A DNA stretch of 36,899 nt from Nitrospirales bacterium (GTDB lineage: Bacteria; Nitrospirota; Nitrospiria; Nitrospirales; UBA8639): NCBI GenBank assembly GCA_021604005.1, contig BQIV01000042.1, positions 1 to 36,899 of the forward strand, read 5' to 3'. Made by a program: the position numbers and the translations under genes. How positions within the stretch are numbered: position 1 is the stretch's first letter; every line of letters begins with the position of its first letter. Below are positions 8,350 to 28,085 of the stretch, piece by piece. The notes under the pieces were generated by a model that made no database searches, was not told where the DNA came from, and saw only the letters and a program-made list of their open reading frames with translations.

Positions 8350-8413
8350 AAATTTCCAAGATGGCTGATCCGATATTTAGACTCAAACTTCAAGGTCAAA
8401 TACGATTGATATA

Positions 8414-8490
8414 TATCAGATAGTTTTCCGTAGATGGTATGCTCCTTTTTATGTCCGGCTTATGCGATGTCTTCTAACAAGAGCAAACAA
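8414..8490 (+). promoter_or_regulatory. Weak sigma-54-like promoter and leader before ankyrin gene
   Basis: ATGTCCGGCTTATGC at 8451-8465 has the -12 half of the two DoxX promoters (GGCTTATGC is identical to 20809-20817), but its -24 half keeps only one of the two G residues. The downstream leader also resembles the DoxX-2 leader (ATGTCTT, then ACAAGA, then an A-rich run). A weak IHF-like match, TATCAG-N4-TTT, starts at 8414. No upstream element at the 98-base spacing was found, so this copy is either degenerate or differently controlled. Confidence 0.4.
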
Positions 8491-9453: not shown

Positions 9454-9893
9454 ACGAGAATATTTCACTAAACACTAACTCTAGTTTTCGTGTTGCCTCC
9501 ACGTCAATTGTTGATATATCGTCACGCCAAGGTTGACAGATCACCTTAGCCTTCTCTTCTCATCTAAAAAATTTTCATACATTTCAAGTCATGAGTGAGG
9601 ATTCTAATTGCCTGTTATCTTAACTTCACCATGATGCCACATCCCTGTTTGAATCTTTGCAGAAGTTGAGTGTCAGTTTCTCCTTTCTCTCGAAATACCA
9701 AATGTTTTTCTGCCCTGATACCCAGTGCATATGCTAGATTGGGATAATTGGGTTACGGTGAGCCAGGCTTGGTTCGATTGGGGATCAAAAATACAAGAAA
9801 TATGGCGTTACTCCTTTTGCTGTGTTGCATGTTTTTCCCGGAAGTCGATCTGAGCCTCGACAAAGTCTCGTACGATTGGGAAGTTGCTTGACG
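9454..9893. promoter_or_regulatory. Decayed copy of the shared sigma-54-type control region
   Basis: TTGTTGATATATCGTCA (9508-9524) matches the upstream element found before the Spy-like and DoxX-2 loci. An IHF-like site, TTTCAA-N4-TGA, starts at 9582. Both place a -24 box at exactly 9621, but the sequence there (TAACTTCACC, with GATGCC to 9638) lacks the GG and is two bases too long. TGTTTGAATCTTTGC at 9646-9660 is a possible replacement core. The rest, up to the kinase start, has no gene. The next gene is the histidine kinase at 9894. Confidence 0.4.
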
Positions 9894-14174: not shown

Positions 14175-14304
14175 ATTCGTCGATATATCGTCGCCCCTCT
14201 TTCAACACGGCACCCATTCCTTGCCTTTTACAACGGGCAAAATAAATAAAAATCATATGCTTGTATGTGAGGTTTTGCCTCGTGATTCCTGGAATGGCTC
14301 TTGC
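14175..14304 (+). promoter_or_regulatory. Sigma-54-type promoter with upstream element and IHF-like site (copy C)
   Basis: Upstream element ATTCGTCGATATATCGTC at 14175-14192 differs from the DoxX-2 copy at one of 18 positions. An IHF-like site, AATCAT-ATGC-TTG, lies at 14251-14263. The core TGGAATGGCTCTTGC at 14290-14304 has GG and GC at the canonical -24/-12 spacing. The element ends 98 bases before the core and the IHF-like site starts 39 bases before it, exactly as in the two DoxX copies. It points toward the small ORF at 14346 and the Spy-like gene at 15088. Confidence 0.7.
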
Positions 14305-14345
14305 CGTACAAGGTGTAAAGCCAACATTCAAACCGGGTGGTGGTA

Positions 14346-14675
14346 ATGGGAATTGGCATTCAGCAAGTAGGACAGATGATTATCACCAGGACGGTCCTCG
14401 TTGCGGGGTTGAGTGTCCAAGCGTGGGAGCTTGAACGTTCGACAAGAAGACAAGCCTCCCATGCTCACGCATATGAAGCGCAATGGAGACAACTGCTAGA
14501 TCGGCTAACACCGAGTGGTTTGTCCAAATTAGTAAAAACCAACTTCAATCGGTCTGTCTTGGAACCTGCACGCATGAGGGCTTACTCCGAACTCCAGAAG
14601 TATCAAAAAACTACGTCACGTACGTTTGTGCCGATGGACATGGACCTTAGCTCTTCGCGAACTTCGGTGTTGTAA
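14346..14675 (+). CDS. Small hypothetical protein, doubtful
   Basis: A 109-residue frame starting at ATG 14346, with GGGTGG about six bases upstream; a GTG start at 14337 is also possible. It lies about 30 bases downstream of the predicted start of transcription from the sigma-54-type promoter. The sequence has an N-terminal weakly hydrophobic stretch, then a basic, mixed region (YEAQWRQLLDRLTPSGLSKL). I recognise no family. It may be a real small protein, a decayed gene or a chance frame. Confidence 0.3.
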   Translation: MGIGIQQVGQMIITRTVLVAGLSVQAWELERSTRRQASHAHAYEAQWRQLLDRLTPSGLSKLVKTNFNRSVLEPARMRAYSELQKYQKTTSRTFVPMDMDLSSSRTSVL

Positions 14676-15087
14676 GGGTCTGTCGTTGCGGGAACGAAAT
14701 CTATCATTCACAGCTTCGTATCGAAGCCAGCCAGGCTTAGCGGCGTATTTTCGAAAGTGCAATTCTTCGCGAATCTTTCAAACCGGAAGGTTCGAAGGCC
14801 CCCACGGCCATGGTGTTATTTTCGCTCTCAAGAACATATGTGGCTTCAGAGAGACGCCAACGCATTGTCATCAAAAAGAGATGACAGGCAGGTCGTTACA
14901 ATTTGTTACAAACTATTACGAGTCTGAGACGAATTTGACATTTTCAAGGGGTACAATATTTACGGGATGGCTAATGCACACATATATAATTTTGTCAGGA
15001 TTTTTACGCAAGGAATTGGATAAGCCCAATCATCATTTCCGTCCAGCTACGGGCGGCATTTCTTCGCTTTTCACAAAGGAGATAGTC
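14676..15087. other. Long leader or decayed region before Spy-like gene
   Basis: No supported gene in 412 bases. A plus-strand frame runs through this region but has no family resemblance and no start. Towards the end is a hairpin, CCGTCC-AGCTAC-GGGCGG (15039-15056), and a strong ribosome-binding site AAAGGAG (15075-15081). If transcription begins at the promoter near 14304, the Spy-like mRNA would have a leader of over 700 bases. Confidence 0.4.
15039..15056 (+). repeat. Leader hairpin, copy 1
   Basis: CCGTCC and GGGCGG arms (one G-U pair) with a six-base loop, ending 32 bases before the ATG of the Spy-like gene. A related hairpin at 16416-16435 precedes the intradiol dioxygenase gene at nearly the same distance (30 bases), followed by a similar ribosome-binding site and signal-peptide sequence. 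The two leaders appear to be duplicates. Confidence 0.5.
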
Positions 15088-15631
15088 ATGACTCGCCACA
15101 CTCATTTGTCCATGGTAGCTGCGTCGGTGTTCGTCAGCATGTTTTTAATCATGAGTAGCCTCGGGTATGCGTATCCAAGGAGCGGAGGGCATGGAAAAGA
15201 GAGTGCCCATCATGTCGAACAATCTCATCATCGAGATATGGAGTATGGGAAGAAACGGCACAGCAGCTCATGCTGGACTAAAACGCTGACTGCTGAACAA
15301 AAGGCCAAAATTGGCAAACTGCAGTTAGACTTTAAGAAAACCAAAAGCTTTGTTGAAGGCTCAGAAAACCGTCAAGAAGGTTGAGATGCCGATCTTGGTT
15401 ACGCAAGACAATGCTGATCAGGGGGCCATCAATAAAAAAATCGACGAAGTTCTGAAACTGAAAAAGGAATACATGCAAAAAAATATACATTTAAAGTTGC
15501 CATGCGCAGCATTTCTGACTCCGGAGCAACGAGTTACATTTGATATGCAGATACTGAAGAAGGTAGTGCATGGTAAAGGACATGGAAGCAAAAAGGGGCA
15601 TGGATATAAAAAAGGTCATAGCTATTGGTAA
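15088..15631 (+). pseudogene. Spy/CpxP-like periplasmic protein, frameshifted
   Basis: ATG 15088, with AAAGGAG upstream, begins a signal peptide ending SSLGYA, then a His-rich stretch (HGKESAHHVEQSHH) and TLTAEQKAKIGKLQLDFKKT. The frame then derails and stops at 15384, while the next frame continues LLKAQKTVKKVEMPILV through CAAFLTPEQRVTFDMQILKK to a Gly-His-Lys-rich tail at 15631. One extra T at about 15349-15351 explains the switch. The two LTxxQ motifs are those of Spy/CpxP/ZraP envelope-stress chaperones, and the His-rich ends suggest metal binding. Repaired length is about 180 residues. It may be a true mutation or a homopolymer error. Confidence 0.8.
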
Positions 15632-15700
15632 ATCGATTGACTGTCCAAGCGAAGAGCCCTGAGTAAAGGTCTGCGAAAGCTCTTCCGGACGCAATCTTGG

Positions 15701-15738
15701 CGCCCCGAGGGAAGTCATTCTTGATTCCTCTCGGGGCG
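15701..15738. terminator. Strong hairpin, probable terminator
   Basis: CGCCCCGAG (15701-15709) pairs perfectly with CTCGGGGCG (15730-15738), and the stem continues GGAA/TTCC inside past a one-base bulge. There is no good T-tract, so termination may be factor-assisted. It separates the Spy-like gene from the DoxX-1 promoter. Confidence 0.5.
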
Positions 15739-15778
15739 TCAGTGCTTCAGGGTACTGTCCAGCAAAATCTTGTCGTCA

Positions 15779-15929
15779 TGTCGCTGTCGCCATTTCGTCG
15801 TATGTCGAAATGTCATCATGCTCATATCGTCACTTCGCTGTTTCTCGTTTAACTGCTCAGAACAGTTAGTCATGAAATCATAGCGTTATGAATTCTTTGT
15901 GTATCACATGCGTTTGGTACAACTTATGC
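15779..15929 (+). promoter_or_regulatory. Sigma-54-type promoter with two upstream elements and IHF-like site (copy A)
   Basis: Core TGGTACAACTTATGC (15915-15929) has the GG/GC -24/-12 spacing. TGTCGCTGTC (15779-15788) ends 127 bases before it, GTCGAAATGTCATC (15804-15817) ends 98 bases before it, and AATCAT-AGCG-TTA (15876-15888) starts 39 bases before it. All three distances equal those of copy B. An inverted repeat ATTTCG/CGAAAT (15792-15811) overlaps the second element. It drives DoxX-1 with a leader of about 60 bases. Confidence 0.75.
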
Positions 15930-16002
15930 CATATTGAATCGTCAAGAAAAAACAACGAGCATCGACACATATATTTTCAAATCAACGACAGGAAGGAACA
16001 TT

Positions 16003-16386
16003 ATGAACGTATTGCAGCCACAAGCCTACGCACTCATGCGCATCATCGTTGGATTGTTATTCTTGTGGCATGGAACGCAGAAGTTATTTGGTTTTCCGAC
16101 GTCCATGCCTATGGAAGCGCCTGATTTTGTCGTGTACATCGCCGGGCCGATTGAACTGTTCGGTGGATTTCTCGTCATGATTGGACTTTTTACTCGTTGG
16201 ACGGCATTTCTGTGCAGTGGTCTGATGGCTGCTGCATACTGGATGGCTCATGGAACCAAAGCGTTGTTTCCTCTCGAAAATGGAGGAGAGCTGGCAGCTC
16301 TGTATTGCTTTGTCTTTCTGCTTATTTCAGCACAGGGTGCAGGCATTTGGAGTGTGGATGGATTGAAGGAAAGTGAGGAAGATTAA
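16003..16386 (+). CDS. DoxX-family membrane protein 1
   Basis: A 127-residue protein with four predicted helices and the DoxX signature LMRIIVGLLFLWHGTQKLFG, PIELFGGFLVMIGLFTRWTA and a final GIWSVDGL. DoxX proteins are small quinone- or thiol-linked membrane proteins; MtDoxX works with a thiol transferase and superoxide dismutase, and Bacillus CatD accompanies a catechol dioxygenase. ATG 16003 with GGAAGGA (15991-15997) is chosen over upstream starts. It lies directly under the sigma-54-type promoter copy A and upstream of an intradiol dioxygenase gene. Confidence 0.93.
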   Translation: MNVLQPQAYALMRIIVGLLFLWHGTQKLFGFPTSMPMEAPDFVVYIAGPIELFGGFLVMIGLFTRWTAFLCSGLMAAAYWMAHGTKALFPLENGGELAALYCFVFLLISAQGAGIWSVDGLKESEED

Positions 16387-16415
16387 ACAGCAGTTAGAAA
16401 CACAAAGTCACCACA

Positions 16416-16435
16416 TCCGTCCGCTTATGGACGGA
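16416..16435 (+). repeat. Leader hairpin, copy 2
   Basis: TCCGTCC and GGACGGA form a perfect seven-base-pair stem with a GCTTAT loop, 30 bases before ATG 16465. It lacks a T-tract, and its resemblance to the leader of the Spy-like gene suggests a 5'-UTR element rather than a terminator of DoxX-1. Confidence 0.5.
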
Positions 16436-16464
16436 AAATTTCACCAAACAATAAGGAGGATATC

Positions 16465-17232
16465 ATGAATCGTTCGGTAGATATTCACACCATTTTGGTG
16501 GCAGCTTTCGTGAGCATGTTTTTTCTGTTCACAAGTCTTGGGTAGGCGATACGCTCAGCGAAGGACATCGAAAAGTGACAGGAGCCTCCCTTACGTGAAG
16601 GACTTCCTTCGAGTGGAAAGACTCCAAGGCAAACCTTGGGTCCGTTTTTTCCTGATGATGGAGATCCGATGACAGAAATATGCGAAAACTTGGATTTTCG
16701 ACTGCCTGTCAGTGAGGCAAATGACAATGATCTCACGACTATTCAGGGAAAGAATGGAAAGGCCAAGGGGCAAGTGGTCTACATAAGAGGAAAAGTGCTG
16801 AGAGATACCTGGGGAACTCTCAAGCCAGTTCAAGGGGCTGTGCTGATTGAATGGATCGAACGGTTGTACGATGACAATTTTCAGTATTGGGAACGGTGCA
16901 TTACGGATGCCGACGGAAATTACTCGTTCAAAACCATCGTCCTTGGATTTTATCCTGTCAATTTTGAAAAGCAGTGGTACCGGCCGCCTCATTTGCATTT
17001 TATGGTGATGGCCCCCGGCGTACCTCAGCTTGTGACACAATTATACTTCAAAGGGGAACAGGTTCCAGGCAATGATTTTATTCAAGAATTGAACGCCAAA
17101 GACGGCATCTTGCGAAGCAACCGGATGACTCAAGCAGAACAGGAGAGCGTTATCATTGAATACACAAAGGATTCAACCAGTTTGATCACGGATGGTCTTG
17201 TGGGGCACTATAATTTTGTCCTGACCCTTTAA
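16465..17232 (+). pseudogene. Exported intradiol ring-cleavage dioxygenase with two in-frame stops
   Basis: ATG 16465 behind AAGGAGGA starts a signal-peptide-like sequence (HTILVAAFVSMFFLFTSLG). TAG 16543-16545 and a TGA about 11 codons later interrupt it, yet the same frame continues TPRQTLGPFFPDDGDP and the whole dioxygenase domain to 17232. TPRQTLGPFFP is the conserved N-terminal motif of intradiol dioxygenases. Fe(III) ligands are recognisable: Tyr in GFYPV, and RPPHLHF with two His plus the Arg ten residues after that Tyr; the first Tyr ligand may be in ERLYDDN. The enzyme domain looks intact, so the defect is in export or translation start. No good internal start precedes the conserved motif. 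The related Spy-like leader has TAT where this has TAG. Confidence 0.8.
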
Positions 17233-17258
17233 GCTGCGGTTGGACATTTCACGATTGT

Positions 17259-17930
17259 TTAGCTTGACTTGCCGGCAATGGGGGAATGGGAGAGCAGTAG
17301 TGCGTGGGTCCACAACGGAAACAACAGAATGAGCGTATAGATCCCCAGCGTCAACTCTAACGATTCTTCGAGAATGCCTCTGAGTACATCAATAAACGGG
17401 TAGGGAGTGTGACGATAAAAAGGCAGATACACTGATTTATCGATCAGCATGGTGGTGACGATGACGAGAAGCCAAAGGAGGACATCCCGCGTCCATTGCT
17501 CACCGGCTTGATACGCCGCCCAAAGGGTCTTCCATCTACGAGGAGGAAATATCGTATACAGCCAGCTGATCAAGACGCCACTGAGACATACGATCAGTAA
17601 TCGTTCAAGAATAGGAATAGAGGGATTCCAGTATAATGCCAATTTATCGAGGTTCCAGCCGAACAGCCAGATGTGTCCATCGAGTTCGCGAAAACCCAAT
17701 AAGAAGAAAAAAATAGAACCACTCAGCCATTCTTTGGTATGACTGCAGCCGTGAATGGCTGACGCGGCACACCACACCGATGCCATAAACCACATGCCGG
17801 CACTGAGTCGCTCGATGAGGTCCCATTCTTGAGTATAAGCATCAGTCACCACGGGATTCTGAAAATACAGGAATCCCGGCAAGCTTACGCCGAAGAACAG
17901 AATAAGCACTGTGGCAAGGCGTGATACCAT
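17259..17930 (-). CDS. Uncharacterised multi-pass membrane protein
   Basis: A 223-residue protein with an N-terminal hydrophobic segment (signal anchor) and about six hydrophobic helices. Conserved-looking polar positions inside or beside helices are FRELDGHIWLFGWN and RGILEESLELTLG, an arrangement with paired acidic residues seen in some unknown membrane families. I do not recognise it. It is convergent with the dioxygenase gene, 26 bases away, and follows the other minus-strand membrane gene by 26 bases, so the two are likely co-transcribed. Confidence 0.75.
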   Translation of the reverse strand: MVSRLATVLILFFGVSLPGFLYFQNPVVTDAYTQEWDLIERLSAGMWFMASVWCAASAIHGCSHTKEWLSGSIFFFLLGFRELDGHIWLFGWNLDKLALYWNPSIPILERLLIVCLSGVLISWLYTIFPPRRWKTLWAAYQAGEQWTRDVLLWLLVIVTTMLIDKSVYLPFYRHTPYPFIDVLRGILEESLELTLGIYTLILLFPLWTHALLLSHSPIAGKSS

Positions 17931-17956
17931 TCATGCAGTCCTTGTGGAAGTGGGGC

Positions 17957-18364
17957 CTACGGCGATGAAGTCAAAAACGAGAGTCTTTTCGTAAAGACAT
18001 CGATATTGCCAGCATCAAGCAGTGTCAGAAAGACATAAAACGTGAGGCCCGTGAGCAAGAATGCTCCGACACCCAATTTCCATTCCTTAGAAAACGTCTT
18101 GTGTCGTAAGGAGTGATGGAAGAGGAAGGAGAGCAGCCCAAACATGCCCACACTCAAACAACCCATGGCGAGATAAAAACAGACAAGTGCCCATCCATTG
18201 ACTGGAGGGACCGAGAACGATGGATTGAGCAACCAGGATATGAAAAAAATCGACAAGCCAATAGAAATGAGAAAGAAAAAGCCGTAGATCGTCAAGGACG
18301 CCGAGTGTTGGGATGCAAAACTCTTCATGCCGGGATCATGCTCGTGGTAGATTACCTGATTCAT
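17957..18364 (-). CDS. Uncharacterised four-helix membrane protein
   Basis: A 135-residue frame with three to four hydrophobic helices (YGFFFLISIGLSIFFISWLL first). The N-terminus is His/Asp-rich (YHEHDPGM). No clear ribosome-binding site precedes the first ATG; the internal Met at residue 13 is an alternative start. No family recognised. It appears to be the first gene of a two-gene minus-strand unit with the gene at 17259. Confidence 0.65.
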   Translation of the reverse strand: MNQVIYHEHDPGMKSFASQHSASLTIYGFFFLISIGLSIFFISWLLNPSFSVPPVNGWALVCFYLAMGCLSVGMFGLLSFLFHHSLRHKTFSKEWKLGVGAFLLTGLTFYVFLTLLDAGNIDVFTKRLSFLTSSP

Positions 18365-18563
18365 TCATTATGTCGTGAAAAGAGGAATTACACAACAGGA
18401 ATGTGCGTCATTTTTTCTTGTCTCTTACGTTTAGGTCTGGCGTTCCATCATTGTTGCCCGGCACACTGTCAAGGATATTGCCCCACAGTTCGTGAATCAG
18501 GTGCTTGAGCAGTGAGGCGAAACCTGCATGCGATTCATGAACCATGAGATGCTGTAGGGGACT

Positions 18564-20609
18564 ATGAAACGTCAATGGGATGCAGTCATTCTTGGTGGTG
18601 GGTTCGCGGGATTGGCATGTGCCAAGCGATTGGAGAAATTATGGGGACCGGATTGCGCGCGCCGAGTCCTCTTAGTCAACGCGGAAAACTATTTTGTTTT
18701 CCAGCCGTTCTTGCCCGAAGTCATCGGTGCGTCGATTGAACCGCGCCATGTCACGAACCCCATTCGATTCGTGCTTCGACGCTGCACGCTCATGCGAGCG
18801 CAAGTGAAACGGATTCATCTCAAGGAACGGCGAGTTGAATTTGATTCCACCGATGGCCCGTATCTAGACCATATTGAGGCCCGGCATGTGATCCTGGCTC
18901 TCGGCAGCAGCACGAATCTGCGTGCAGTTCCAGGGATGATGGAGCATGCGCTCTTTTTGAAGACATTAGCCGATGCGCTTTCTCTTCGCGAACACATCGT
19001 CCGCCGGCTTGAAGAGGCGAGTTTGGAATCGCATGCACACAGCAGAAAGCACTTGTTGCATTTCGTTGTCGTTGGTGGGGGATACAGCGGTGTCGAGACA
19101 GCCGGAGAGATTTTAGATTTGCTCCATGACGCTCGACGTTTTTATCCAATGCTGGACCTCGGTGAATTTCAGGTGACTTTAGTGCATTCAGGTTCTCATG
19201 TCCTTCCGGAATTGGGAGAAAAGCTTGGTCGATTTACTCAAAAAACTCTGGAAAGCCGCGGCATGGTTGTGATGGTCAACCAGCGTGTCACCTCCGTGAG
19301 CCGCGACTATCTTCGACTGAAAGATGGAACTCGACTCGACACACACAATGTCATCTGTACGATCGGGAATGCCCCGAATCCTGTACTCGCGGATCTAGAG
19401 GCCGAATATGAACGAGGCAAGCTCCTGACGGACGAATACCTACGTGTGAAGGGTTATGAGGATGTCTGGGCAATTGGTGATGGTGCGTCGAATCCAGATG
19501 GGTATGGTGGACGTTGTCCGCCCACAGCTCAATGTGCCACACCGTTAGGCGAACAGGTCGCCAGGAATATCGATGCCGCATTGGCCAATCAGCCCCTCGA
19601 CCCCTTTCGATTCAAGATGCTTGGCCAGATGGCAACCATTGGACATCATAAAGGTGTCTGCTCGATCTTCGGAGTCCAATTTAGCGGCATATTGGCTTGG
19701 TGGGTTACACGGACTGTTCACTTACTGAAACTTCCAGGAATCGACCGAAAGCTTCGGGTGATGATTGATTGGACATTTGAGCTGTTTTTTCCTCCGGATC
19801 TCAATTATTGGGATCTCAGGAAAACGCAGAAGCTCGCGCGGGTCCATGTCGAGCCTGGAGACCTTGTCTTTCGACAAGGTGATCAAGGGCAGGCCTTTTA
19901 TGTCGTGGAGGAGGGTATTCTCGAGGTCATACGATGCGATGCCAATGGCAACGTGTTATGGAAAGATGAATTAGTGCGTGGAGATCATTTTGGGGAAGGG
20001 TCACTGCTGTATGGCCTCGAACGTCGCGTGACGGTAACGGCAAAGACAGAAGCGACTCTGCTCGTCTTCGCATCCAAAGACTTCAAACTGTTCGTCGACT
20101 TGTTCCAATCGTTGCGTGAAATGCTCAGTTCCACGGCAACCAGGGGACCACTGGAAGAATTTTTAAACCCGGCAACATGGTCAGAAGAGCTCCTTGAAAG
20201 TCCGGTCACGGATCACATGAACACGTCGCCGGTCTCTATGGCTGGGGCAGCGACCATAGCCGAAGCGGTTCAACAATTAGCAGAACGCCGTCAACACATG
20301 CTGCTCGTGATCGATGAAAACGGAAAGTTGACTGGTCTCTTGACAAAAACAGATCTATTCAGGTGCACGGTCAACCGACAACCATTATCTGAAACCCTGA
20401 ACAATATTGGGTCGCAAGACGTGACCTCCGTGCAGTCAACACAGTCTATCCGCGATGCTCTTCGCGTACTCTATATGAAGGCCGTGAAGCAGGTGCCTAT
20501 TCTTGATGACACTGGTCGGCCCGTCGGTTTGTTGAGCTACCTCGATGTGGTGCTTGCACGAGCACAACGTGTTCAAAAGACTTCTCACACGACTCTGCAA
20601 GATTCCTAG
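18564..20609 (+). CDS. Type II NADH dehydrogenase fused to cNMP-binding and CBS domains
   Basis: A 681-residue fusion. Residues 1-420 are an NDH-2-type flavoprotein: FAD loop GGGFAG (11-16), NYFVFQPFLPEV, LALGSSTN, NAD loop VVVGGGYSGVETAGE (168-182), second FAD motif VWAIGDGA (301-308), PPTAQCATPLGEQVARNI, and a membrane-associating tail GILAWWVTRTVHLLKLPG. Residues about 425-515 are a cyclic-nucleotide-binding domain with VEPGDLVFRQGDQGQAFYVV and a phosphate cassette HFGEGSLLYGLERRVTVTA (Glu and Arg kept). Residues about 545-665 are two CBS motifs ending GLLTKTDLF and GLLSYLDVV. This suggests quinone reduction gated by a cyclic nucleotide and an adenylate ligand. AGGGGA upstream supports ATG 18564. 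Confidence 0.92.
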   Translation: MKRQWDAVILGGGFAGLACAKRLEKLWGPDCARRVLLVNAENYFVFQPFLPEVIGASIEPRHVTNPIRFVLRRCTLMRAQVKRIHLKERRVEFDSTDGPYLDHIEARHVILALGSSTNLRAVPGMMEHALFLKTLADALSLREHIVRRLEEASLESHAHSRKHLLHFVVVGGGYSGVETAGEILDLLHDARRFYPMLDLGEFQVTLVHSGSHVLPELGEKLGRFTQKTLESRGMVVMVNQRVTSVSRDYLRLKDGTRLDTHNVICTIGNAPNPVLADLEAEYERGKLLTDEYLRVKGYEDVWAIGDGASNPDGYGGRCPPTAQCATPLGEQVARNIDAALANQPLDPFRFKMLGQMATIGHHKGVCSIFGVQFSGILAWWVTRTVHLLKLPGIDRKLRVMIDWTFELFFPPDLNYWDLRKTQKLARVHVEPGDLVFRQGDQGQAFYVVEEGILEVIRCDANGNVLWKDELVRGDHFGEGSLLYGLERRVTVTAKTEATLLVFASKDFKLFVDLFQSLREMLSSTATRGPLEEFLNPATWSEELLESPVTDHMNTSPVSMAGAATIAEAVQQLAERRQHMLLVIDENGKLTGLLTKTDLFRCTVNRQPLSETLNNIGSQDVTSVQSTQSIRDALRVLYMKAVKQVPILDDTGRPVGLLSYLDVVLARAQRVQKTSHTTLQDS

Positions 20610-20666
20610 GCACATTTGAAGTGAAAGATTAATACCCTCTAGTTCCTGATCGAACTACTCTTGCTC

Positions 20667-20817
20667 TGTCGCTGTCACGTCTTCGTCATTCGTCGATATA
20701 CCGTCATGTATCGTTTCGACACATCGTGTTCCCATCTTTTCTACTCACAAAACAATATAAATAAATCAAGTACTTATAAGTCATTCTGATGCCATCGTGG
20801 TTTGGTACGGCTTATGC
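20667..20817 (+). promoter_or_regulatory. Sigma-54-type promoter with two upstream elements and IHF site (copy B)
   Basis: Core TGGTACGGCTTATGC (20803-20817) fits the sigma-54 -24/-12 pattern. TGTCGCTGTC (20667-20676) ends 127 bases upstream of it, ATTCGTCGATATACCGTC (20688-20705) ends 98 bases upstream, and AATCAA-GTAC-TTA (20764-20776), a perfect match to the IHF consensus WATCAA-N4-TTR, starts 39 bases upstream. The leader after the core also resembles copy A (CTTATGCCAT, then an AGAA/A-rich stretch). It drives DoxX-2 and probably the whole STAS-VOC-RND operon. Confidence 0.8.
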
Positions 20818-20902: not shown

Positions 20903-21400
20903 ATGAAAGCATTTTTTGAAACAGACGATCGGTGGTCGGGATTGATCTTGAGAGTCATGTTGGCGCTCGTAATTTTTCCCCATGGCGCGCAAAAGCTGTT
21001 GGGATGGTTTGGCGGCAATGGGTTTGAAGGTACGATGGGGTTTTTTACTCAGCAAATGGGCATGCCTTGGGTGATCGCGTTCCTCGTGATCATTGGGGAA
21101 TCAGTTGGGGCGCTAGCAATCGCGCTTGGTTTATTCACTCGATTTTCTGCGGCTAGCCTTGCGGTCATTATGCTTGGTGCCGTGGCAATGGTGCACTGGC
21201 CGCATGGGTTTTTCATGAATTGGTTTGGCCAACAGGCGGGCGAGGGATTTGAATTTCACCTGTTAGTCATCGGCATGGCCCTGGCATTGGTTACCAACGG
21301 TGGCGGAAAATGGTCGATGGATCGAGTCATCGCGAGATGCATCACTGGCGATTCTCTCGCCCAGAATCTTGTGTCTCAAAAATTGGTTTCAGTGGTCTAA
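20903..21400 (+). CDS. DoxX-family membrane protein 2
   Basis: A 165-residue protein with four helices and a typical DoxX layout: GLILRVMLALVIFPHGAQKL, MPWVIAFLVIIGESVGALAI, LGLFTRFSA and a closing NGGGKWSMDR. AGGAGG (20890-20895) sets the start. The last 25 residues (VIARCITGDSLAQNLVSQKL) extend past the usual end of the family and include a cysteine. It heads an operon with STAS, VOC and efflux genes. The DoxX-VOC pairing parallels Bacillus CatD-CatE, where it protects against catechols. Confidence 0.93.
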   Translation: MKAFFETDDRWSGLILRVMLALVIFPHGAQKLLGWFGGNGFEGTMGFFTQQMGMPWVIAFLVIIGESVGALAIALGLFTRFSAASLAVIMLGAVAMVHWPHGFFMNWFGQQAGEGFEFHLLVIGMALALVTNGGGKWSMDRVIARCITGDSLAQNLVSQKLVSVV

Positions 21401-21434: not shown

Positions 21435-21725
21435 ATGCTCAAAATCACAGTGGACACAGTCAAGACCGGCATCGTCATCAAGCTTGAAGGCAGGCTTGCC
21501 GGTCCCTGGGTTCAAGAGCTGGAAAAATATTGGGAATCCATCCGGGTGGTGAATGAATCGAACAGAGCTCGGGTAGATCTCCAAGGAGTCACCCATGTGG
21601 ACGAATGTGGAAAACAATTGTTGAAACAGATCTATCGACAAGGCGGCGTGCTCATCGCTTCGGGATGTATGACCAAAGCGATCGTACAAGAGATTATCGT
21701 GGAGAAGACGTGTGAATGGAAATAG
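21435..21725 (+). CDS. STAS-domain protein
   Basis: A 96-residue single-domain protein resembling anti-sigma-factor antagonists: MLKITVDTVKTGIVIKLEGR first strands, VDLQGVTHVDECGKQLLKQI around the usual phospho-serine position, and GGVLIASGCMTKAIVQEII. The residue normally phosphorylated (Ser/Thr in DxSG) appears as Glu-Cys here (DECG), so classical phospho-switching is doubtful. ATG 21435 is preferred over GTG 21408 because AAAGGAC lies shortly upstream. It sits 34 bases after DoxX-2 and 35 before the VOC gene. A sensing or scaffolding role in the operon is inference. Confidence 0.75.
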   Translation: MLKITVDTVKTGIVIKLEGRLAGPWVQELEKYWESIRVVNESNRARVDLQGVTHVDECGKQLLKQIYRQGGVLIASGCMTKAIVQEIIVEKTCEWK

Positions 21726-21760
21726 GCACACCCCTTTTTCTTGAAAGAACGGAGACGGCT

Positions 21761-22207
21761 ATGAAAGCGCAGTATGTAGGTCATGTTGTGTTTTATGTGA
21801 AAGATCTAGAGCGTTCGCTGAGCTTTTACCGTGATCTTTTGAGGTTTCAAGAAGTCGGTCGGGCGTTCGAAGGCACGGCCGTAGCCTTGACCTCCGGTAG
21901 GACGCATCACGAATTGCTCTTAATCGAGGTGGGAGATGTTCCGGGACCTCCGCCAGGCAGACGGCGTGGTTTCTATCATATTGGCATTAAAATTGGTGAT
22001 AGCTTGGAGGAACTTCGTTCTGCTAAAAAAGACCTTGAACAAGCAGGTGTTCTCATTATGGGAATGAGTGACCACACCGTGAGTCAAAGTTTGTACCTTC
22101 ACGATCCTGACGGCAATGAAGTCGAATTGTATGTCGATGCCCAAGGAGTCGATTGGAAGGAAAATCCCATGATGGTGCTTTCCCCGAGCAAGCCGCTGGT
22201 GTTATGA
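21761..22207 (+). CDS. VOC-family dioxygenase/glyoxalase-like protein
   Basis: A 148-residue VOC-superfamily protein: YVGHVVFYVKDLERSLSFYR (His metal ligand), GFYHIGIKIGDSLEELRS (second His) and LYLHDPDGNEVELYVD (Glu ligand). This three-ligand set is that of glyoxalases and type I extradiol dioxygenases. The LYLHDPDGNEVELY block and the DoxX neighbour favour a CatE-like catechol-2,3-dioxygenase activity, but a single-domain glyoxalase or thiol transferase cannot be excluded. ATG 21761 is supported by GGAG at 21751-21754. Confidence 0.85.
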   Translation: MKAQYVGHVVFYVKDLERSLSFYRDLLRFQEVGRAFEGTAVALTSGRTHHELLLIEVGDVPGPPPGRRRGFYHIGIKIGDSLEELRSAKKDLEQAGVLIMGMSDHTVSQSLYLHDPDGNEVELYVDAQGVDWKENPMMVLSPSKPLVL

Positions 22208-22257
22208 AGCCAACGTACCGGCGCGTTTATGTATCCTGATGATGTGGAGAAATTGCC

Positions 22258-22275
22258 ATGAAAGAATTTCTGTAG
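22258..22275 (+). other. Possible five-codon leader ORF before the RND adaptor
   Basis: ATG 22258 has a well placed GGAG (22246-22249) and encodes MKEFL then TAG. The adaptor ATG follows two bases after this stop and lacks its own ribosome-binding site, so reinitiation coupling is plausible. A chance arrangement cannot be excluded. Confidence 0.35.
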
Positions 22276-22277
22276 TG

Positions 22278-23507
22278 ATGAAAGTCCATAGTCCATCCAA
22301 CCTGTCTTTCGCATTACTTGTGCTGATGTTGTTAGGTCTCACGGCCTGTCAACAGGAAGCTGGTCCACCGCCTGCACCTCTTCCACCCGAAGTTAAAGTC
22401 ATAACTGTGGTTCCTAAAACGATTCCTGACGAAGTGGAGTTTATTGGTCAAACGGATTCATTTCGGCCAGTTGAAATTCGCTCGCAAGTTACGGGGATTA
22501 TTAAGAAAGTTTTCTTTACTGAAGGCCGTGATGTCAAGAAAGGTGATCGGCTCTATCTCATTGATCCTATCCCGTTTAAGGCTGCGGCCGGAAGTGCTCG
22601 AGGGCAAGTGGGCCAAGCTGTGGCCCGTTTGGCGCAAGCCCGAGCGGAGCTAGCTCGTGTGAAGCCGCTTCTTGACGAACAGGCCGTGAGTCAAAAAGAT
22701 GTGGATGACGCGATTGCCGAAGAGTTGGCGGCAGAGTCGGCCCTGGTCTCGGCGAAGGCGGATTTTGAAAAGGCCAAATTCGATCTCAAAAATACACTTA
22801 TCGTGGCTCCTGTGTCGGGACGCATTGAGCGTAGCCAGCTCTATGAGGGGCGCTTGGTTTCTGCTCAGACCGACTTGCTCACCAGTATCCGTCAGATGGA
22901 CCCCATGTACGTCAACGTGAATGTTCCTGAAAGCTATATTCTGAGACGTCAACGAGAACTATCGGAACAGCGTGTGGAGCGTCCTGACCTTTTTGAATTA
23001 CGAGGGATTATGACCATGGCTGATGGGACCACCTATCCCCATGAAGGTACATTGGATTTTGCCGGAACGGGGTTTCGTTCCGAAACAGGTTCCTTGCAAT
23101 CGCGCTTTGTGTTTCCCAATGTACGGCAACGATCGGTTCCGGGAGATCGTGATGATCGACCGGTGTATGCCTTGTTCCCAGGCCAATTTGTTCAAATTCG
23201 CGTGAAGGGATACATGCGAATGAACGCCTTGTTAGTCCCGCAACGCGCGGTCCAACAGGGCGCTCAGGGTACGTTTGTCTATGTCATCGATGGCGAGAAT
23301 AAGGCCGAGCTTCGTCCGATTACAGCGAGTGCCTGGCACGGTCAAAACTGGTTGATTGATGAGGGCTTGCAAGCAGGAGAGCAAGTTGTCGTTGAAGGGT
23401 TTCATCGTGTTCGGCCTGGAGCTCAGGTGAGTCCGGTTCCGTTTCACAGCCCCGCAGACTCTTCGGTGACCCCACCTGTAGACGCGGACCGTGTGGAGGA
23501 GTCGTGA
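22278..23507 (+). CDS. RND efflux periplasmic adaptor lipoprotein
   Basis: A 409-residue membrane-fusion protein of the AcrA/MexA type. The signal ends in lipobox LTAC (Cys24). It has the lipoyl-like half motif VEFIGQTDSFRPVEIRSQVTG, a coiled-coil hairpin (about 105-165, VARLAQARAELARVKPLLDE) and the second lipoyl half NTLIVAPVSGRIERSQLYEG. A beta-barrel and membrane-proximal domain follow (QFVQIRVKG, LLVPQRAVQQGAQGTFVYV). It is lipid-anchored in the inner membrane and joins the pump to the outer-membrane channel. The upstream ATG 22239 frame is possible but less natural. Its stop overlaps the pump start by four bases. Confidence 0.94.
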   Translation: MKVHSPSNLSFALLVLMLLGLTACQQEAGPPPAPLPPEVKVITVVPKTIPDEVEFIGQTDSFRPVEIRSQVTGIIKKVFFTEGRDVKKGDRLYLIDPIPFKAAAGSARGQVGQAVARLAQARAELARVKPLLDEQAVSQKDVDDAIAEELAAESALVSAKADFEKAKFDLKNTLIVAPVSGRIERSQLYEGRLVSAQTDLLTSIRQMDPMYVNVNVPESYILRRQRELSEQRVERPDLFELRGIMTMADGTTYPHEGTLDFAGTGFRSETGSLQSRFVFPNVRQRSVPGDRDDRPVYALFPGQFVQIRVKGYMRMNALLVPQRAVQQGAQGTFVYVIDGENKAELRPITASAWHGQNWLIDEGLQAGEQVVVEGFHRVRPGAQVSPVPFHSPADSSVTPPVDADRVEES

Positions 23508-26500
23508 GTCCGCACTTTTTTATTGATCGTCCAATCTTTGCCTCCGTGTTGTCGATCATCATTGTTGTCATCGGCCTTGTATCATTGCAGGCTTTGCCTA
23601 TTGCACAGTTTCCGCAAATCACGCCACCGATGGTGCAAATTGATGCGGACTATCCAGGAGCCAGTGCGGAAGTGGTTGCTGAATCCGTCGCTCGTCCCAT
23701 TGAAGTTCAACTTCCGGGTATCGACAATCTTTTGTACTACGACTCTACAAGCACCAATGACGGTCACATGACGATGAAGCTCACGTTCGAAATTGGGACG
23801 GATGTCGATATTGCACAGGTGCAGACACAGAATCGGCAACGACTCGCGGAACCGCAGCTTCCTGATGAAGTCGTGCGTCAGGGCGTCACGGTGAAAAAGA
23901 CCTCTCCTGATCTCCTAGCGGTGATCGCATTAAGCTCGAACGATCCTAATCATGACACAATTTTTCTTTCAAACTATGCCTTGCTTCGTATTCTCGACAA
24001 TGTCAAGCGACTGCCTGGTGTCGGCGATGCGTCAATTTTCGGCGGTCAAAACTATTCCATGCGCCTCATTCTTGATCCCGTGAGTATGGCGCAACTTGAT
24101 TTGACCCCGAGTGATATCGCCGATGTCGTACGAGAGCAGAACCGCGATTTCCCTGCAGGGCGAATTGGACGCGAACCTGCACCTCAGGGAACGGAGTTAA
24201 CGATTCCTATTATCACGCATGGTCGAATGAGCGATGTGAAGGAATTTGAAAATATGATCGTTCGGGCCTATCCCGATGGGTCAATGGTGAGGTTACGGGA
24301 TGTCGCTCAAGTTGAGTTAGGCGCACAATCCTATGATCTTCAAGGACGATGGGATGGGAAACCCAATACCTTTCTCATCACATTTCTTGCTCCTGGAGCC
24401 AATGCCCTTGATACCATCGAACGGGTTCGGAATGAGATGGATCGACTTGCCCCAAGTTTTCCGCGAGGCGTGTCGTACGATATTCCCTATAACACCACAC
24501 AATTTATTGAAGTGTCTATTCAGGAAGTCGTCAAGACACTCATGGAAGCGATGGTGCTGGTTATTTTGGTGGTGTTTCTGTTTCTCCAAAGTTGGCGTGC
24601 GACCCTTATTCCTGCGGTCGCCGTTCCCGTCTCGCTTATTGGTACATTTGCTGGCATGGCCGCATTGGATTTTTCCATCAATACCTTAACGTTGTTTGGC
24701 ATGGTGTTGGCCATAGGAATCGTTGTGGATGATGCCATTATTGTTGTGGAGAACGTCGAACGTCTTATGAGCCAGCAAGGTCTTTCACCGAAGGAGGCTG
24801 CTCAAAAAGCCATGAGCGAAGTCACTGGGCCGGTGATTGCCAGCGTGCTTGTACTGGTCGCCGTGTTTGTTCCCGTTGGATTTTTGGGTGGGATTACTGG
24901 TGAACTCTATAAACAATTTGCCATTACGATTGCGGTGTCCGTTGCGATTTCAGGGCTTGTAGCATTGACGTTGAGCCCTGCGCTGTGTGCTCTTGTTCTC
25001 AAGCCGAACCATGGTGAACCCCAAGGATTTTGGAAGCTGTTCAATCGATCATTTGATTGGATGCAGATTCGCTATGTAGGGGCTGTGGGTGTGTTGATTC
25101 GACGTTCCATCATGTCGTTGGGCATTTTTGCCATTTTGTTGTTCACAGTATGGGGCCTGTTTCGAACGATTCCCGGTGGGTTTCTTCCACCAGAAGATCA
25201 AGGCTATTTCATTACGATTGTTCAATTGCCAGATGGAGCATCTCAAGAACGAACGATCCGGGTTCTGGAAAAGGTTGAAGGGTATTTCAAGTCGGTTCCG
25301 TCCGTACATTCGACGGATACCCTTGCTGGTCAGAACTTTATTTTCAATACTCGTGGAGCCAATCAGGCGACGATGTTTATCCCATTACATCATTGGGATG
25401 AGCGAGAGGAGGAGCATGAGCAGGCGCCTTCTCTGATTGCCGCTGCGTTTCAAGAGTTTGCCAAAATTCCAGAAGCCCTGATCTTGGCATTCAATCCACC
25501 TTCAATTCGAGGGGTCGGGGCTACCGGTGGTTTTACGCTCCAACTTCAAGACCCGAGCGGAGGCGATTTCAAGAAGTTTGCAGCTGTGACCCAAGAGTTT
25601 GTGACGAAGGCCGCTGAGCATCCCGCGATCGCTGCCGCCAATACCAGTTTTCGTATCAGTGCTCCACGCCTCAATGCCATGGTTGATCGAGATCGAGCAA
25701 AGGCCTTGGGTGTGCCGATTTCAGAAGTCTTCGATACTATGCAAGCTTACTTCGGAAACCTGTATATCAACGATTTTGTCAGGTTTGGTCGTGTGTATCG
25801 TGTTCAGACGGAAGCGCAGCCCCAGTACCGATCGAGTCCTGAAGACATCAGTAAGATGTACGTCCGCGCACAGAATGGATTCGAGAGCAGCATGATTCCA
25901 TTGAATACGGTTGTCACGACCGAATTCACGACGGGGCCTGATCCTGTGACTCATTTTAATGGATTCAATACCGCGTTGGTCTTGGGTGGGGCCGCGCCAG
26001 GCTATAGTTCTGAAGAAGCGCTCGATGCCTTGGAAGAGGTCGCCGGTGACGTGTTAACCCCTCAGGGATATGCCATTGACTGGAGTGGGATGTCATTTCA
26101 AGAACGCAAGGCTGGAGGGCAGTCGGTGTTGGTGTTTGCCTTTGCCATGCTAATGGTCTTTTTGGTGTTGGCTGCACTGTATGAAAGTTGGTCGATCCCA
26201 TTTGCCGTTCTCCTGGCTGTTCCGTTTAGTATTCTTGGCGCGTTGGGTGCCGTGTGGATGCGGGGTCTGACCAACGATATCTACTTTCAAATCGGACTTG
26301 TCACATTGATTGGCTTGGCGGCGAAGAATGCCATCTTGATTGTCGAGTTTGCCAATCAACGGTATGAAGAAGGCCACTCGTTGGTGGATGCCGCACTTGA
26401 GGCGGCCCGGCTTCGATTTCGACCTATTATCATGACATCGGTGGCCTTTATTTTAGGGGTGGTTCCTCTCGTCATCGCGTCAGGAGCTGGGGCTGCGAGT

Positions 26501-26677
26501 CGCAATTCGATCGGGACGGGAGTGTTTGGAGGCATGTTGGCCGCCACATTCCTGGCCGTCTTCTTTGTCCCACTCTTTTTTGTGGTTATCGGGAAATTTC
26601 GCAAGGACACACGCGATGTGCAGAATGAGCAATCTTTGAAAACAGAACCGACCCTTCAAGAACGGGAAGAGTATTAA
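23504..26677 (+). CDS. RND multidrug efflux transporter, HAE-1 family
   Basis: A 1057-residue inner-membrane pump starting at GTG 23504, in a GTGA overlap with the adaptor stop. The N-terminus FFIDRPIFASVLSIIIVVIG is the HAE-1 hallmark. Proton-relay residues are present: Asp409-Asp410 in GIVVDDAIIVVENVERL and Lys941 in LAAKNAILIVEFANQR. Two large periplasmic loops and twelve helices are expected and the length is normal. Substrates of such pumps include detergents, dyes, phenols and antibiotics. Gene order with DoxX and VOC genes suggests aromatic or quinone-type toxicants, but this is inference. Confidence 0.97.
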   Translation: MSPHFFIDRPIFASVLSIIIVVIGLVSLQALPIAQFPQITPPMVQIDADYPGASAEVVAESVARPIEVQLPGIDNLLYYDSTSTNDGHMTMKLTFEIGTDVDIAQVQTQNRQRLAEPQLPDEVVRQGVTVKKTSPDLLAVIALSSNDPNHDTIFLSNYALLRILDNVKRLPGVGDASIFGGQNYSMRLILDPVSMAQLDLTPSDIADVVREQNRDFPAGRIGREPAPQGTELTIPIITHGRMSDVKEFENMIVRAYPDGSMVRLRDVAQVELGAQSYDLQGRWDGKPNTFLITFLAPGANALDTIERVRNEMDRLAPSFPRGVSYDIPYNTTQFIEVSIQEVVKTLMEAMVLVILVVFLFLQSWRATLIPAVAVPVSLIGTFAGMAALDFSINTLTLFGMVLAIGIVVDDAIIVVENVERLMSQQGLSPKEAAQKAMSEVTGPVIASVLVLVAVFVPVGFLGGITGELYKQFAITIAVSVAISGLVALTLSPALCALVLKPNHGEPQGFWKLFNRSFDWMQIRYVGAVGVLIRRSIMSLGIFAILLFTVWGLFRTIPGGFLPPEDQGYFITIVQLPDGASQERTIRVLEKVEGYFKSVPSVHSTDTLAGQNFIFNTRGANQATMFIPLHHWDEREEEHEQAPSLIAAAFQEFAKIPEALILAFNPPSIRGVGATGGFTLQLQDPSGGDFKKFAAVTQEFVTKAAEHPAIAAANTSFRISAPRLNAMVDRDRAKALGVPISEVFDTMQAYFGNLYINDFVRFGRVYRVQTEAQPQYRSSPEDISKMYVRAQNGFESSMIPLNTVVTTEFTTGPDPVTHFNGFNTALVLGGAAPGYSSEEALDALEEVAGDVLTPQGYAIDWSGMSFQERKAGGQSVLVFAFAMLMVFLVLAALYESWSIPFAVLLAVPFSILGALGAVWMRGLTNDIYFQIGLVTLIGLAAKNAILIVEFANQRYEEGHSLVDAALEAARLRFRPIIMTSVAFILGVVPLVIASGAGAASRNSIGTGVFGGMLAATFLAVFFVPLFFVVIGKFRKDTRDVQNEQSLKTEPTLQEREEY

Positions 26678-26678
26678 C

Positions 26679-28085
26679 ATGCGTGTGATTGTCGTCGTTT
26701 TCTTCACAGTTCTCAATGCCTGTGCGGTGGGTCCTGACTATTCTCAGCCTGAGCTTCCGATGCCTGAGGACTTTCGGCAAGCTGAAACGTCAAGTTCTCT
26801 GGAGTCCTTGGCGAATCTTCCGTGGTGGGAACTTCTGAAAGATGCCACACTTCAGAAACTTGTTCAGACGGCGCTTGAGGAAAATAAGGATCTTCAGCAA
26901 GCTGTCGCGAGCATCGAAGAATTTGAAGCTCGTCTCTACGCCGCGCGGACGGATTTTGCCCCACAGATGACCGGTAGTGCGAGATTCCCGGCTCTTGGCC
27001 GAACCGGTGGATTTCGTTTTCCCGGTTCTCCTGGAACGTTTAGTTATTCCTTACTGGGAGATCTGGCCTGGGAGTTGGATGTGTGGGGACGGATTCGGAG
27101 ATCGACGGAAGCGGCCTTGGCCGACCTCTTGGCACAAGAGGAAAATCGACGAGCCGTGGTCCTTGGTCTTGTGAGTGGCGTGGCTCAATCCTATTTCGAT
27201 CTTTTACAGTTTGATATGCAACTTGATATTGCGAGACGGACGCTCGAATCCTGGGAAGAGTCTGTGAGGATTGCGAGCGCGCGGCTGAAAAGAGGGATTA
27301 CGTCAAGACTTGATGCGGATCAATTTGAAGCTGAACGCGCGAATGCTGCCGCACGTGTAGCCGAACTTGAACGACTCATGATCCAGAAAGAAAATGAGTT
27401 GAGTGTTCTATTGGGGAGGAATCCGACCGAAATTGAAAGAGGGACGATGCTCACGGACCAAGTCTTTCCACCTGAAGTTCCCGCTGGGTTACCTTCTGAA
27501 CTTCTTCGCCGTCGGCCTGATATTGTGAAGACCGAACATGAGTTAATCGCGGCGACGGCGCGAATCGGTGTTGCAAAAGCTGATCGTTTTCCCAAAGTCA
27601 CTCTTACTGGGATTCTTGGCGTGGCCAGTCCTCGTCTTTCAAACCTGTTTGAGTCGGAATCCAAGTTTGGCGCCGCCGGATTTGATCTTGTCGGCCCACT
27701 CCTCAATGCGGAAGCCCTTGGGTTTCAGCAAGACATTGCCGAAGCTCAAGCTCAACAAGTGCTTGCCCAATATCAACAAACGATTCTTGTGGCCTTTCGG
27801 GAAGTTGAAGATGCCTTAATTGCCGTACAAACCGCTCGCATTCAACGACAGGCGCAGAGTGAACAAGTTGAGGCTTTACGATCGGCCTTGCGCCTGGCAA
27901 ATCTCCGCTATCAGGGTGGGGTGACGAGCTACATCGATGTGCTCATTGCGAAGCGCAGCCTCTTTGATGCGGAATTGTCGCTCGCTGAAACCCATCGCCT
28001 TCACCTTGTCTCCATTGTCCAGCTCTATAAGGCCCTTGGTGGCGGCTGGTCGCCGGACTCTGTGGCTGTTTCAGCGAAAGGGTAA
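26679..28085 (+). CDS. Outer-membrane efflux channel lipoprotein (NodT family)
   Basis: A 468-residue TolC-type channel protein of the RND lipoprotein NodT branch. The signal ends in lipobox LNAC, followed by AVGPDYSQPELPMPEDFRQ, which is typical of this branch. The two repeats each contain long helices (LVQTALEENKDLQQAVASIE; ELIAATARIGVAKADRFPKV) and a C-terminal LANLRYQGGVTSYIDVLIAK. It begins one base after the pump stop, so the three genes form a complete tripartite exporter. The C-terminus converges on the repressor gene at 28240. Confidence 0.95.
   Translation: MRVIVVVFFTVLNACAVGPDYSQPELPMPEDFRQAETSSSLESLANLPWWELLKDATLQKLVQTALEENKDLQQAVASIEEFEARLYAARTDFAPQMTGSARFPALGRTGGFRFPGSPGTFSYSLLGDLAWELDVWGRIRRSTEAALADLLAQEENRRAVVLGLVSGVAQSYFDLLQFDMQLDIARRTLESWEESVRIASARLKRGITSRLDADQFEAERANAAARVAELERLMIQKENELSVLLGRNPTEIERGTMLTDQVFPPEVPAGLPSELLRRRPDIVKTEHELIAATARIGVAKADRFPKVTLTGILGVASPRLSNLFESESKFGAAGFDLVGPLLNAEALGFQQDIAEAQAQQVLAQYQQTILVAFREVEDALIAVQTARIQRQAQSEQVEALRSALRLANLRYQGGVTSYIDVLIAKRSLFDAELSLAETHRLHLVSIVQLYKALGGGWSPDSVAVSAKG

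Follow-up and report, generated by a model that had tools for sequence, protein, structure and literature searches.

The window analysed here comprises the 36,899 nucleotides of contig BQIV01000042.1 of a Nitrospirales bacterium (assembly GCA_021604005.1), and the promoter elements, the genes after them and the relic copies described below lie on its forward (+) strand. It carries three composite promoters that are very probably, as judged from their sequences, sigma-54 promoters of one regulon, driven with the assistance of IHF by an FhlA-like activator encoded on another contig of the genome, C7. An earlier note on this DNA had proposed that one enhancer-binding protein controls three loci of the window, i.e. 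those of a Spy-like gene, of DoxX-1 and of DoxX-2 with an RND pump. Of this proposal, the sigma-54 promoters, their common upstream element, the IHF site and a common activator are supported, while the Spy-like gene has become doubtful as a target.

The three sigma-54 cores are to the base where the earlier note had placed them, i.e. TGGAATGGCTCTTGC at 14290..14304 (promoter 1), TGGTACAACTTATGC at 15915..15929 (promoter 2) and TGGTACGGCTTATGC at 20803..20817 (promoter 3), and they keep GG and GC at -24/-12 with the 10 intervening bases of a sigma-54-dependent promoter. This core is also conserved in the orthologous promoters of relatives. As claimed, an enhancer element, or upstream activating sequence (UAS), ends exactly 98 bases before each core: GTCGATATATCGTC at 14179..14192 with 0 mismatches, GTCGAAATGTCATC at 15804..15817 with 3 and GTCGATATACCGTC at 20692..20705 with 1. 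The IHF-like site WATCAA-N4-TTR likewise starts 39 bases before all three cores, perfect at promoter 3 (20764..20776) and with one mismatch each at promoter 2 (15876..15888) and promoter 1 (14251..14263). The enhancer regions of promoters 2 and 3 extend beyond the UAS. The palindrome TTCGTCGTATGTCGAA (15794-15809) overlaps the UAS in the region 15794..15817, and the half-site TTCGACAC (20715-20722) follows the UAS in the region 20692..20722.

An element-core spacing of 98 occurs three times in the window, and every other spacing occurs at most once. The core by itself is weak evidence, since the pattern TGG-N-A-N7-TGC is found 7 times in the window. We scanned the whole 4.7-Mb genome with patterns and with a promoter profile. 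The composite pattern, allowing up to 3 mismatches, matched only the three window sites and C34:5984, and its reversed-pattern control gave 0 matches genome-wide. We rejected C34:5984 as a chance match because it has none of the other promoter features. The profile is sequence-only and was built from 15 promoters near DoxX or activator genes; the E-values of the three window sites (1.2e-23, 6.3e-18 and 1.7e-17) prove little in themselves, because these sites belong to the training set, and what counts is how far the remaining genome falls behind, its next best match having an E-value of only 1e-3. The scan for further copies that the earlier note had suggested thus sets the three sites apart, but in this genome it yielded no further full-strength copy, only two decayed copies in the window (8388 and 9510) and one weak candidate on C35; it was other species that supplied further copies. 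A possible extra member of the regulon, or of a paralogous one, is a weak candidate at C35:10341-10486 (locus L217), where a variant UAS GCCGAAATATCGGC (TTCGGCATCTGCCGAAATATCGGC) and a core TGGAACAACCTTTGC precede another membrane-fusion protein (MFP)-RND operon with a spacing of ~107. Palindromes TTCGTCATCTGACGAA at C68:4193 and, as a one-mismatch copy, at C46:11527 were rejected, as they lie within open reading frames (ORFs) and have no suitable core.

The shared geometry does not appear to be merely that of a recent copy, because promoters 1 and 2, which are 67% identical inside the motifs, resemble each other outside them no more than expected by chance (28%, with 26% expected from composition). 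Between promoters 2 and 3 some homology persists outside the motifs (44% identity), so that these two probably share a more recent ancestor. Promoter copies have also arisen and died in the window, as indicated by a promoter 3-like segment at 8388..8472, whose core lacks the -24 GG, and by a relic UAS GTTGATATATCGTC at 9510..9523 with no core at the right distance. We regard it as possible, though rather doubtful, that the identical geometry stems from one promoter having been duplicated recently, with only promoter 3, perhaps also promoter 2, functional and promoter 1 a relic. Such a history would fit the homology of promoters 2 and 3, the decayed copies, and the position of promoter 1 before an orphan ORF and then a gene that is frameshifted and has a control element to itself. 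It fits poorly with promoters 1 and 2, since neutral decay would not bring their surroundings to chance identity and leave all motifs at exact spacing, and with the conservation of the geometry across genera. For promoters 2 and 3, duplication is compatible with membership in one regulon. The decayed copies precede the genes of an ankyrin-repeat protein and of a MASE3 histidine kinase.

The genome encodes the machinery that such promoters need. The sigma factor itself, which the earlier claim presupposes, is present as one rpoN gene (E 1.7e-59, with the RpoN box ARRTVAKYR), and the genome also encodes ~28 sigma-54 activators and three HU/IHF-family proteins. IhfA scores 122 bits, above the NCBI cut-off of 111, and its gene precedes a MerR-like ORF; IhfB scores 114.1 bits, one bit below the cut-off of 115, and its gene lies beside SppA-like and S1-domain ORFs. 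The names of these neighbours are our reading of their translations.

The activator was expected outside the window, and indeed no activator gene or strong remnant of one was found within it. We compared the activators of this genome with 80 stretches of DNA that surround relatives of DoxX-2 in named genomes. In eight loci, all of Nitrospira/Nitrospiraceae (L040, L041, L042, L044, L046, L052, L053 and L055), an activator gene starts 2-6 kb upstream of DoxX, and for 8/8 of these linked activators the best match in this genome is the one on C7 (~126952-129048, i.e. L116:6453-8552). In a maximum-likelihood tree of 40 activators the C7 protein and the eight linked ones form one clade with support 99/99, apart from the genome's other 26. 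By Pfam the domains of the C7 protein are GAF-GAF-AAA+ (GAFTGA)-Fis-type helix-turn-helix (HTH), the architecture of group 3 bacterial enhancer-binding proteins (bEBPs). Among NCBI models, that of the formate hydrogenlyase activator matches it best, but with 563.7 bits it stays under the equivalog cut-off of 830 and is hence FhlA-like and not FhlA. On these comparisons the C7 protein is the best identified candidate for the activator missing from the window.

The DNA site differs among relatives. Close relatives have an element approximating G[T/A]CGA[T/A]AT[A/G][T/C]CGTC(A) 96-99 bases before the core, with extra half-sites TTCGTCA(C) upstream of the element and TTCGACAC ~10 bases downstream. 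In more distant Nitrospira, the DoxX cores are preceded by a clean dyad, GTGACGAW-N4-WTCGTCAC. The promoter precedes DoxX-2, DoxX-1, VOC and intradiol dioxygenase genes in different genomes and genera, i.e. it is found at non-orthologous places. Of 19 promoters, 10 have an IHF-like site with no more than one mismatch at -39, and other offsets occur at most once each.

Activator and promoter also go together across the 49 genomes of the family. A strong activator match is found in 16/49 of them and DoxX-2 in 12/49. Taking a profile E-value below 1e-5 as a strong promoter, we found both activator and promoter in 14 genomes, the promoter only in 1, the activator only in 2 and neither in 32; the Fisher p value is 2.5e-9, which is inflated since related genomes are counted and which involves a profile trained near DoxX or activator genes. 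Matches outside the training set (G019 C25 and C22, G022 C55:29693, G023 C152 and G037 C232) are all in activator-bearing genomes. In the lone promoter-only genome, G022, a contig ends within the activator gene region and leaves a truncated activator there, just before DoxX-1. In G024 (same genus, 99% complete) the activator, DoxX-2 and the promoter are all absent, and G006 is, among the 14 members of its own genus, both the sole activator carrier and the sole one with a strong promoter match. Where activator and DoxX share a contig, they are 217 bp (G027), 2.4 kb (G047) or 3-6 kb (G021, G028, G029 and G032) apart. The gene maps show the activator, DoxX-1, Spy, DoxX-2, VOC, pirin, methyltransferase and MFP-RND-outer membrane factor (OMF) genes in varying subsets.

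In the mechanism that we propose, the C7 FhlA-like activator would bind half-sites of the TTCGTCA/TGACGAA type at about -100 to -130, and a bend introduced by IHF at -39 would bring it within reach of the RNA polymerase-sigma-54 at the -24/-12 core. Through its GAF domains the activator would sense a small molecule and, in response, turn on DoxX-1 together with the dioxygenase, as well as DoxX-2 together with the VOC protein and the RND pump. We infer the binding, the bending, the start sites, the operon extents and the ligand.

Besides the inflated p value, several observations weigh against this reading. The UAS spacing between GACGA and TCGTC differs by clade (N4 vs N6), and VOC promoters lack the -39 IHF-like site. 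The activator is unlinked to its targets in this genome, and its frame has no ATG, GTG or TTG at the start of its homologues, with GGAGG-N5-ATT there instead. Without a standard start codon at that place, the gene may have an unusual start or may be damaged; it may start at the ATT, it may have a late start (651 aa), or there may be a mutation or an assembly error. The last two observations, and the presence of FhlA-like paralogues in the genome, would also suit an arrangement in which a paralogue among the other ~28 activators runs the single sigma-54 regulon here, while the C7 gene is damaged or has taken on another purpose. We consider this improbable, since the C7 frame is open across both GAF domains, the AAA+ domain and the HTH, and linkage and co-occurrence in relatives indicate the C7 orthologous group only. 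That the cores are fortuitous and the genes transcribed by sigma-70 is very improbable indeed: the core pattern does recur in the window and in other Nitrospirota these genes have a sigma-70-like promoter, but the composite and profile statistics and the conservation in other genera contradict a chance resemblance, and the region holds no surplus of sigma-70-like sites (5 found vs 9.2 expected).

Promoter 2 is followed by DoxX-1 (16003..16386, Pfam DoxX 7e-15) and an intradiol dioxygenase-like protein (16660..17232), the homologue of which in G021 has its own UAS-99-core promoter. Promoter 3 is followed by DoxX-2 (20903..21400, Pfam DoxX 4e-22), a glyoxalase/dioxygenase-fold VOC protein (21716..22207) that scores under all specific NCBI cut-offs, and an RND efflux pump (22239..26677) made up of a membrane-fusion protein (22239-23507) and an AcrB-type transporter (23504-26677). 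The order DoxX-2 then VOC is found in the window and in relatives, and the next ORF after the pump (26679-28085) matches the ORFs in the OMF position of relatives. Bacillus has catDE/mhq-type operons, in which DoxX is combined with a glyoxalase-fold dioxygenase. By this analogy, and because DoxX occurs with VOC and intradiol dioxygenase-like proteins, pirin and an RND pump, the regulon might serve in defence against aromatic or quinone-like electrophiles, a role in which we place limited confidence. The likeness to catDE/mhq consists in a DoxX gene beside a VOC-family gene and, in some Nitrospirota, in MarR genes with the same set; the differences are that sigma-54 activation is predicted here, as opposed to repression there, and that the cargo adds pirin, the intradiol dioxygenase-like protein and the RND pump. 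An NDH-2-like dehydrogenase fused with a cyclic-nucleotide-binding domain and two CBS domains (18564-20609) adjoins DoxX-2, also in close relatives.

The same genes are under other controls elsewhere in the phylum. Ten other Nitrospirota DoxX loci (L043, L049-L051, L054, L057, L058, L071, L087 and L095) have a palindrome of about AGTTCTA-N2-TAGAACT upstream, within a sigma-70-like promoter, and mostly continue with pirin, VOC and RND genes; no sigma-54 features were found at these ten loci. A MarR gene adjoins DoxX in L063, L070, L073, L085 and G040. We tentatively propose, at somewhat short of even confidence, a Nitrospirota-wide sigma-54 regulon: an FhlA-like sensor, the signal of which may be aromatic or quinone-like, would travel together with the DoxX-dioxygenase-RND cargo that bears its promoters, would keep the enhancer-IHF-core geometry rigid, and would have displaced, or given way to, the two other controls, i.e. 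the sigma-70-like palindrome and MarR. Within this one phylum, a single stress-defence gene set is found under three kinds of control.

The mechanism of sigma-54 activation is itself known and textbook (PMC7175178, PMC3844500), while the regulon, the activator and the site are apparently undescribed; the literature that we searched, which is a part of the whole, contains no description of a regulon linking this activator, this site and DoxX. FhlA-type regulons of group 3 bEBPs (PMC7175178) share the domain order GAF-GAF-AAA+-HTH and the combination of a UAS, an IHF-like site and a -24/-12 core. They differ in their targets, which here are DoxX, dioxygenase and RND genes, and no formate hydrogenlyase genes were seen in the gene maps. 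The IHF-assisted pspA promoter with PspF (PMC7175178) similarly has its UAS upstream and an IHF site between UAS and core, whereas the activator here has two sensory GAF domains and the spacing holds at 96-99 from genus to genus and from one gene family to the next. Activator, DNA site and target genes are thus obtained together in Nitrospirota, where this genome alone has ~28 sigma-54 activators. The strictly spaced enhancer-IHF-core unit is also suited to probing how rigid the looping of sigma-54 promoters has to be.

The Spy-like locus is the doubtful part of the original proposal. By its sequence, promoter 1 is probably a true member of the regulon, but its target is doubtful. Directly after it lies an orphan ORF of 112 codons (14337..14675), for which no homologue was found in the 48 other genomes of the family. 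The Spy-like (LTxxQ-type) gene (15088..15631) begins ~800 bp downstream of promoter 1 and, judged against homologues of 209 codons, is split by a frameshift into 15088-15384 and 15350-15631. It also has its own conserved element, GTTACAATTTGTTACAA. All of these weigh against the Spy-like gene as a target of promoter 1. The element is a threefold 10-base direct repeat, GTTACAATTT-GTTACAAACT-ATTACGA (14895..14921), which is probably a separate control element of the gene and which also precedes Spy/LTxxQ-like genes of G022, G023, G038 and G039. As the repeat resembles an operator for a different regulator, perhaps an OmpR/CpxR-like one, Spy may be independent of promoter 1. When we searched the DNA at 14310-15085 for homologues, conservation was limited to the GTTACAA repeat, and no leftover of a lost DoxX-1 copy was found between 14310 and 15090. 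A truncated second Spy-like start, 26 codons and then a stop, follows DoxX-1 at 16465..16545. DoxX-1 is thus flanked by two damaged Spy-like copies (15088-15631 and 16465-16545), and our guess is that a promoter-DoxX-1-Spy unit was doubled and that each copy then lost one part.

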